This document shows, piece after piece, positions 17,227-18,624 of a stretch of 64,000 bases of DNA. The position numbers and the translations under genes were made by a program. The notes under the pieces were generated by a model. The model had not been told where the DNA came from and searched no databases. It saw only the letters and a program-made list of their open reading frames with translations. Each line of letters opens with the position of its first letter. The first letter of the stretch is position 1. Source of the DNA: Alphaproteobacteria bacterium (lineage in GTDB: Bacteria > Pseudomonadota > Alphaproteobacteria > Rhizobiales > Rhizobiaceae); contig JANSYK010000001.1 of assembly GCA_024742485.1 (NCBI GenBank), positions 806,001 to 870,000 of the forward strand, read 5' to 3'.

Positions 17227-18624
17227 CTATTTTGCCCGAACCTCTTCGGGTTGGAAGAACAGATAATCTGCATCTTCCGCTCCAAGATGGCAGTCATGGC
17301 AAAATGTCATTGCCGCACTTCCGGCCCCGCCGGTCAATCCGACAGTTGTCCCCCCCGGCATAACAAGCGCATAGCGCCAGTCTCCTGTTTCAGCGTTAAA
17401 ACCACGGGTCATCTTTTCCATGATGAAAAGCGGCCCGATCGACGCCTGACCGGTCGCACTGACCGTGAAACTCGCCTTGGCTGCGGTCGTGCCGATAGGC
17501 ATCGGGTTGACCTCGCCATATTTGGCATAGGCTGCGGACCCGATCTTGTTGGTGTAATTCAGCACGAAACGGTTGCCATGCGTGGCACTCGGATAGGCAT
17601 ATTTCGAGAAGTGGTCGAAACCCTGCCATTTATTGACCGCCCAATGGCCGCCACCCTTGTAGGACGAACCGATTGTGTCCTGAAGGCAGTCATAGAGGGC
17701 AATCAACTCTTCCGGTGCAAGGTTCAGATCGTCAGGATCAGCGGCCGCGCTAGCTGCACAGGGATTGCAGGGGTTACACGGGTTGCAGGGTCCGCAAGCC
17801 GCGGCTTTCGTTGCCGCACAGGGGTTGCAGGCCGAAACCTTCTTTGCAGCGCATGGATTGCATGGGTTGCAGGCCGAGGCCTTTTTTGCCGCACACGGAT
17901 TGCACGCACCGCAGGCTGACTTCGTGGCTGCGCAAGGATTGCAGGCACCACAGGCGCTTTTCGTTGCTGCGCAGGGGTTGCAGGGGTTGCAAGCTGATGC
18001 CTTCTTGGCGGCACAGGGATTACACGCGCCACATGCTGGTTTCTTGGCAGCACAGGGATTGCATGCCCCGCAAGCCGATGCCTTTTTGGCGGCACATGGA
18101 TTGCAGGCAGAAGCATTCCACAAGCGCGGTACGTAACACTCGGTCGCGCCTGCTCCCGCACTTGCGGCACAGGGGTTACACGGATTGCAGGCTGACGCAG
18201 CGCACGGATTGCATGGGTTGCACGCACCACAGGCGGTTTTCTTTGCAGCGCAGGGATTGCAAGGGTTGCAGGCCGAAGCCTTTTTGGCGGCGCACGGGTT
18301 GCAGGCACCGCAAGCTGACACTTTCTTCGCAGCACAGGGGTTGCAGGCTCCACAGGCGGATTTGGTTGCAGCACACGGGTTACAGGCGCCGCAGGCCGAT
18401 TTCTTTGCGGCGCACGGATTACAGGCGCCACAGGCCGAAACCTTCTTCGCGGCGCAGGGGTTGCAGGCTGCAGGTTTTTTGGCGGCGCACGGATTGGCCG
18501 CGCAGGTAGCTGCGCTCGGTGTTGCTGTCCCAACGGACAGCAGAAGCGATGCCGCTCCTACTCCGCCAACGGCCAGCGGCACCAATGCCACCGTAGTGAG
18601 CAGTTTCGTTTTGAGTAACACCAT
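17227..18624 (-). CDS. Cys-rich [14 protein letters not shown] protein with cytochrome P460-like domain
   Basis: A 465-residue exported protein. Residues 1-38 are a signal peptide. About 41-295 contain 18 units built on N-P-C-A-A-[KTS]-[KA], mostly preceded by C-G-A-C or C-N-P-C, giving over 50 cysteines nearly all in C-x-x-C pairs; one interruption (E-C-Y-V-P-R-L-W) lies mid-array. Residues 296-465 resemble cytochrome P460: [15 protein letters not shown], and a C-H-D-C-H haem site at 442-446, then D-A-D-Y-L-F-F. ATG 18624 follows GGAGGAGGAGAAG. The array could bind copper or another soft metal, and the haem domain may do redox chemistry; both are inference. A strong terminator follows, and the histidine-rich gene at 18803 lies upstream on the same strand. 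Confidence 0.88.

Follow-up and report, generated by a model that had tools for sequence, protein, structure and literature searches.

Exported-Looking Cysteine Array Fused to a P460-Type Haem Domain: A Candidate Metal/Thiol Buffer Linked to DUF6969 and FGE-Like Proteins

A gene in the window (the whole stretch of 64,000 nucleotides of alphaproteobacterial DNA that was analysed) encodes a cysteine array fused to a cytochrome P460-like haem domain, and such arrays recur in other genomes together with genes for a DUF6969 protein and a protein resembling formylglycine-generating enzymes (FGE-like). The fusion itself had been recognized in the original prediction; the larger unit, in which DUF6969 and the FGE-like protein are co-inherited with the array, had been missed. 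This recurring set of an exported-looking Cys-array protein, DUF6969 and a putatively secreted FGE-like protein, in which the P460 domain is optional, points to an undescribed bacterial system. The earlier view that the combination is undescribed agrees with our literature search, in which no paper on a Cys array with a P460 domain, and none on the letters of the array motif, was found among open-licence PMC papers. We propose that the protein may be an exported metal/thiol buffer fused to a P460 haem domain and served by DUF6969 and the FGE-like protein, a tentative proposal to which we give slightly less than an even chance. Across a whole clade a P460 domain has been built onto a huge array of candidate soft ligands, and the link to the array gives DUF6969 a testable substrate.

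The Gene in the Window

The boundaries originally given for the gene (17227-18624) are correct, and it lies on the minus strand, with an ATG at 18624 and a TAG ending at 17227 (Table 1). Its signal peptide is a by-eye reading of the sequence, which suggests that the protein is exported. Directly behind the gene, folding predicted a stable terminator hairpin (-26.1 kcal/mol, z -6.7) that did not appear in the consensus scan for terminators, and a promoter scan found no promoter. A BD-FAE-type esterase is encoded downstream (window 16168-17055, minus strand), and an esterase of this type also lies downstream of the array-P460 gene in three relatives (L015:6719-7510, L019:7097-7909 and L028:5894-6760).

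Table 1. Position, strand and basis of the features around the array-P460 gene in the window.
Feature	Positions	Strand	Basis or remark
Cys-array-P460 fusion protein P0001	17227..18624	-	465 aa; probably exported
N-terminal leader / signal peptide (residues 1-40)	18505..18624	-	Read by eye; has the motif of most array-bearing relatives
Cysteine array (residues 41-289, 54 Cys)	17758..18504	-	Sequence counts
CYVPRL element (residues 163-168), conserved, divides the array	18121..18138	-	Motif counts, relatives
Cytochrome P460/c'-beta fold domain (residues 296-465)	17230..17739	-	Pfam, alignment, AF2 model, fold and profile searches
Lys383 (K88 of the domain), aligned with the lysine that crosslinks haem in cytochromes P460	17476..17478	-	Alignment
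CHDCH haem c attachment motif (residues 442-446)	17287..17301	-	Sequence, alignment
Probable intrinsic terminator immediately behind the array-P460 gene (stem of 14 pairs, loop of 7 nt)	17172..17206	-	Folding
DUF6969 protein (PF22308, E 3.3e-77)	18803..19600	-	178 bases upstream of the array-P460 gene

The Cysteine Array

The array (residues 41-289) contains 25 NPC, 18 NPCAA and 9 CGAC motifs. More than 50 cysteines, nearly all in CxxC pairs, had been noted earlier, and indeed 51 of the 54 are paired in this way, the three outside CxxC being C41, C46 and C163. The 18 repeat units counted earlier equal the 18 NPCAA pentads, but they do not form a regular repeat, as the Cys clusters are mostly 7 or 8 residues apart with irregular spacing. 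The CYVPRL element, which had been overlooked, divides the array into a first part of 26 Cys and a second of 27. Of 28 array-P460 proteins, 23 have a motif of the form C-x-[VI]-P-x-[LIM] inside the array.

The 18 NPCAA pentads are encoded by 18 different 15-base DNA sequences, as would result from selection at the protein level rather than from duplication in the recent past. Cysteine is encoded by 34 TGC and 20 TGT codons, and the two asparagine codons are used 13 times each. The pattern TGYAAYCCNTGYGCNGC has 17 matches genome-wide, all of them inside the array-P460 gene. Judged from these counts, and from its retention in distant relatives, the array does not look like a product of chance or a recent low-complexity artefact. 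Its length is variable: among 80 arrays, some of which are ended by a contig edge, the number of Cys ranges from 5 to 108, and the relative L015, which is 95% identical, has 48 Cys compared with 54 in the window. The linkers are rich in Met or His in four of the 80 arrays, where they are possible soft-metal ligands, and not in the other 76.

Searches against Pfam and NCBIfam assigned the array to no known family; the protein matched only PF16694 and, below threshold, PF21048 (Pfam, E<=1). Two known types of Cys-rich sequence were considered and rejected. Weak phmmer matches to CXXC zinc-finger/TET structures (4hp1, 4z3c and 5exh, E 0.05-0.33) were attributed to composition, and a multihaem cytochrome c was discarded given the single CxxCH in the whole protein. 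In two other proteins (L107 and L117) the repeats switch from NPC to CGAC while C-x-V-P-R-L and the Cys density are retained.

The P460-Type Haem Domain

The assignment of the C-terminal part to a P460-like domain was upheld by three kinds of search. The Pfam match to PF16694 (Cytochrome_P460) was marginal, barely over the cut-off (28.1 against 27 bits). With a profile of 53 sequences, all six PDB chains found at E<=0.1 were P460 or c'-beta proteins. The AF2 model of the domain (pLDDT 93.3) gave eight Foldseek matches in the PDB at E<=0.001, again all P460 or c'-beta, with the P460 of M. capsulatus on top (9hrk, E 2.9e-7). A structural search placing the C-terminus outside P460 had been named as the result that would speak against the domain; in the search that we ran, every match at E<=0.001 fell inside the P460/c'-beta group.

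Fourteen positions were invariant in all 53 domains, numbered by domain residue: H54, G55, G83, K88, L104, F105, M107, E108, K109, W121, Y123, C147, C150 and H151. C147, C150 and H151 form the C-terminal CxxCH site for haem c, and this CHDCH is the only haem motif in the domain, as had been noted. K88 aligns with a lysine of the P460 chains, whereas c'-beta proteins have Met or Phe there. In the text of a 2025 review, the crosslinking lysine is Lys70 in N. europaea P460 and Lys78 in M. capsulatus P460 (PMC11928373). The lysine at the P460 crosslink position is thus present, and a crosslink to the haem may form there. Cytochromes P460 have a Soret band near 450-463 nm (PMC11928373). According to the same text, a distal carboxylate (Glu or Asp) is needed for hydroxylamine oxidation in cytochromes P460 (PMC11928373). 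E108 aligns with this carboxylate in the M. capsulatus and N. europaea proteins, although a hand-estimated register of the hairpin in our model gave no clear agreement.

Relatives and History of the Fusion

A scan of genome contigs for the P460-like domain gave 57 loci, of which 35 bear an array, 21 do not and one is a fragment (L066). We built a tree of 53 domains, that of the window and those of 52 loci (L062, L065, L066, L068 and L071 were left out). In this tree a branch with a support of 96/96, recovered in 96% of bootstrap trees, separates the 34 array-bearing domains from all others. The tree is unrooted, so a single gain of the array is consistent with the data and not proven. The fusion is old, and the array distribution is consistent with one origin within the P460 family. 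The proteins of the array clade are mostly alphaproteobacterial; relatives with the gene include Hoeflea poritis E7-10 and Nitratireductor sp. XY-223. The question of whether orthologues keep the fusion has a divided answer: it is kept throughout the array clade, but a sister set of P460-like proteins, the 21 array-less loci, does not have it.

In the family of the window's own organism the domain was found in 12 of 199 genomes, with 13 matches in total. Four of them, L002-L005 (own, G164, G066 and G077), have both the VPR motif and an array, the latter with 33-55 Cys; L014 does not, and the other eight are in reading frames of 177-251 aa. Many array-less P460-like proteins (L048, L049, L050, L052 and others) share an N-terminal GDPxxPRRHFR segment; these proteins fall outside the array clade, at loci without DUF6969. 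L062, L068 and L125 have NPCAA repeats within the P460 domain itself; they are inserted immediately ahead of GPLFxMEKM, where the AF2 model shows a hairpin loop.

Most array-bearing relatives also share a leader motif of the type K..LLSTTxxP, found in 23 of 26 array-P460 leaders and in none of 21 array-less P460 proteins, a count that leaves out two array-P460 proteins with a too-short leader and those cut by contig ends, and in which the array-less L065 has only six residues at this place. The expression used was tuned post hoc on the positives, and a stricter first version matched 13 of 28 array and 1 of 21 array-less proteins. In the DUF6969-linked set the motif occurs in 12 of 18 array-P460 and 9 of 23 array-only proteins. 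Its conservation suggests that the leader may serve for recognition.

DUF6969 and Its Link to Arrays

DUF6969 is encoded in the fetched locus of 18 of the 35 array-bearing and none of the 21 array-less P460 loci. Some loci are short contigs, so absences of DUF6969 and of the FGE-like gene are partly due to truncation. Starting from DUF6969 itself, which 75 of 337 genomes from the class encode, we fetched 80 surrounding regions. By rule within 5 kb, 30 of these have an NPC array, 23 a P460-like domain and 36 either, and 13 have an array without a nearby P460. In eight more regions, among them that of a second DUF6969 in the genome of the window (L096), Cys repeats of other kinds that look exported were seen by eye within 4 kb, which together with L140 brings the regions with a Cys-repeat gene or a P460-like domain to 45 of 80. 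Since DUF6969 also occurs beside arrays without P460, its shared partner is the array rather than the haem. No Cys array is within reach in the remaining 35 regions, eight of which are shorter than 10 kb and five of which have an FGE-like gene, so DUF6969 may have a different role.

The link was also seen at the level of whole genomes. One DNA pattern for NPCAAKNPC occurs in 23 of 337 genomes, 22 of which have DUF6969 (hypergeometric 5.6e-15, a p value that ignores relatedness); the pattern misses the array of the window itself (0 matches in its genome, G000) and therefore samples one dialect of the repeat. A P460-like domain occurs in 47 of 337 genomes, with DUF6969 in 33 (1.5e-14, again ignoring relatedness) and absent from 14. 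The second DUF6969 in the genome of the window (C154:1412143-1412754, L096:8072-8803, plus strand) adjoins a small CGACGACGA-type protein that looks exported and has CGAC repeats (L096:7628-7936, plus strand; 11 Cys, no P460).

DUF6969 has no signal peptide by eye. Eight residues, five of them His, are identical in all 78 sequences compared (H88, H90, H99, H101, H133, D78, N152 and R206). Its AF2 model (pLDDT 87.9) had no fold match in the PDB at E<=0.001 and the protein no sequence match there at E<=1, and no papers on DUF6969 were found among open-licence PMC papers.

FGE-Like Partner and Other Neighbours

The FGE-like protein matches PF03781 (E 6.4e-40). Its gene lies in 12 of the 35 array-bearing and none of the 21 array-less P460 loci, and in 25 of the 80 DUF6969 regions. 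Genome-wide, it was found at E<=1e-50 in 27 of 337 genomes, 25 of which have DUF6969 (3.3e-16, with the p value ignoring relatedness). The signature GGSWDDxGCGxCR was matched 23 times across the 25 loci that have an FGE-like gene; canonical FGE has two copper cysteines. In the genome of the window a homologue with 61% identity is encoded elsewhere, unlinked to the array, at C154:416984.

An MNIO enzyme (DUF692, PF05114) was considered as modifier of the array and rejected, as its class-wide co-occurrence is near chance: it is present in 132 of 337 genomes, 8 of them with the NPC pattern (9.0 expected) and 37 with DUF6969 (29.4 expected). The genome of the window has one MNIO match, at C154:2259169, with DUF6969 and the array at 823-825 kb. 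Elsewhere a distance of about 4 kb separates at least one DUF6969 (G202:C8) from an MNIO, by eye among the matches listed. Among 99 neighbour proteins, for which 25 of 70 families were listed, no copper or metal gene family stands out and DUF2063 and DoxX are not among the families listed; cytochrome c (6), DUF2336 (4), Sulf_transp (3) and Usp (3) are. Sulphur-transporter-like genes were seen near DUF6969 or the array in L032, L035, L042, L043, L124, L133, L138, L163, L167 and L171, and PF04143 was confirmed for 3 of the 99 neighbours.

Proposed Function

In our proposal the array-P460 protein would be exported to the periplasm, where the CxxC array could act as a high-capacity buffer for thiols and a soft metal, most likely Cu(I), tethered to the P460-type c-haem domain. 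The earlier suggestion that the array stores or sequesters a soft metal, or buffers redox state, is a reasonable hypothesis with indirect support. A length that varies while the composition stays constant is as expected of a buffer measured by dose. Counting against the proposal are the lack of a prominent metal gene family among the 99 neighbours (25 of 70 families listed), the rarity of Met- or His-rich linkers, the 35 DUF6969 regions with no array in reach, the 14 P460-like genomes lacking DUF6969, and the unlinked position of the FGE-like gene in this genome. The array would be substrate or cargo of the small co-inherited gene set. DUF6969, presumably cytosolic, is His-rich and probably metal-dependent, and might act on the array before export by recognizing the LLSTTxxP-type leader. 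The turn of the secreted FGE-like protein would come once the array is exported, with the central C-x-V-P-R-L as a possible site of action. With its crosslink lysine kept, the haem domain could perform nitrogen-oxide or gas chemistry of the P460 type next to the store of metal and thiols. A more specific version, which we regard as rather doubtful, would see DUF6969 as the enzyme that matures a new class of exported, ribosomally made Cys-array metallophores independent of MNIO, with leader recognition in the cytosol, CxxC modification or metal loading and an FGE-like oxidase after export, the gene in the window then being a permanent fusion of such a product to a crosslinked P460 enzyme.

Characterised P460 haem proteins are known as nitrogen-cycle enzymes, and the haem domain could instead be the central part, oxidizing hydroxylamine or binding NO, with the array as a protective thiol or electron reservoir or as a sink for NO. 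The P460 fold and the lysine column (53 of 53) agree with this, as do the Cys repeats inside the haem domain of L062, L068 and L125 and the cytochromes c among the neighbours (6 of 99). We nevertheless consider it unlikely, because DUF6969 also accompanies arrays without a nearby P460 (13 of 80 regions) and because E108 is no more than a candidate for the distal carboxylate. In that same column the c'-beta protein 7s5o aligns an Asp, and 7s5o is listed in the review text without hydroxylamine oxidation (PMC11928373).

The array looks exported, is tandem and tolerates changes in length, which would also suit a structural stalk or spacer, stabilized by disulfide bonds, to keep the haem domain off a surface. 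CxxC can form disulfides in the oxidizing periplasm, and the CxxC pairs of the array may simply be disulfides, which would speak against a buffer too. As a stalk, however, the array-only proteins beside DUF6969 would hold nothing, and neither the gain of Met and His in the linkers of four of 80 arrays nor the switch from NPC to CGAC with preserved Cys density and C-x-V-P-R-L (L107 and L117) fits this role, which makes it less likely still. A further alternative, in which the array has no function of its own and is just a multi-haem or low-complexity stretch, as its low-complexity sequence and variable length might suggest, is hardly credible given the single CxxCH, pentads that differ in DNA and not in protein, and an array kept across the clade and tied to partner genes.

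Comparison with Known Systems

The haem domain shares its predicted fold, single CxxCH and crosslink-column lysine with the cytochrome P460/c'-beta superfamily (PF16694; 9hrk, 2je2, 7ead and 7s5o), but the main text of the 2025 review (PMC11928373) makes no mention of 'fusion', 'repeat', 'copper' or 'alphaproteobacteria'. The FGE-like partner resembles the family of formylglycine-generating enzymes in its PF03781 match, and C-x-V-P-R of the array is reminiscent of the C-x-P-x-R that sulfatases present to FGE as substrate motif. In CYVPRL, however, the Pro is one position off and the sequence is not C-x-P-x-R. Csp copper storage proteins and metallothioneins also use many Cys for soft metal; the array-P460 protein has no Pfam match to them (E<=1) and differs in being an exported-looking tandem array of CxxC fused to a haem domain.

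A further comparison is with bufferins, which are described as MNIO-made RiPPs that chelate copper (PMC12452194). The text of that paper also reports Buf_EGKCG/oxazolins, whose long repeats with as many as 58 Cys it compares to copper storage proteins, together with a small number of fusions of Buf1 to cytochrome c and FGE-sulfatase domains (PMC12452194). Like bufferins, the array protein is Cys-rich and has a signal peptide (by eye). Unlike them, it has no link to MNIO and a different motif, and is accompanied by DUF6969 instead; Pfam found no Buf1 or Buf2 domain in array-P460 (E<=1), and the main text of the bufferin paper contains neither 'P460' nor 'NPC' (PMC12452194). The array may best be read as a bufferin-like soft-metal/thiol buffer, perhaps one matured by a non-MNIO system, and it would then represent a possible second route, besides the MNIO bufferins, to exported Cys-rich metal buffers in bacteria.
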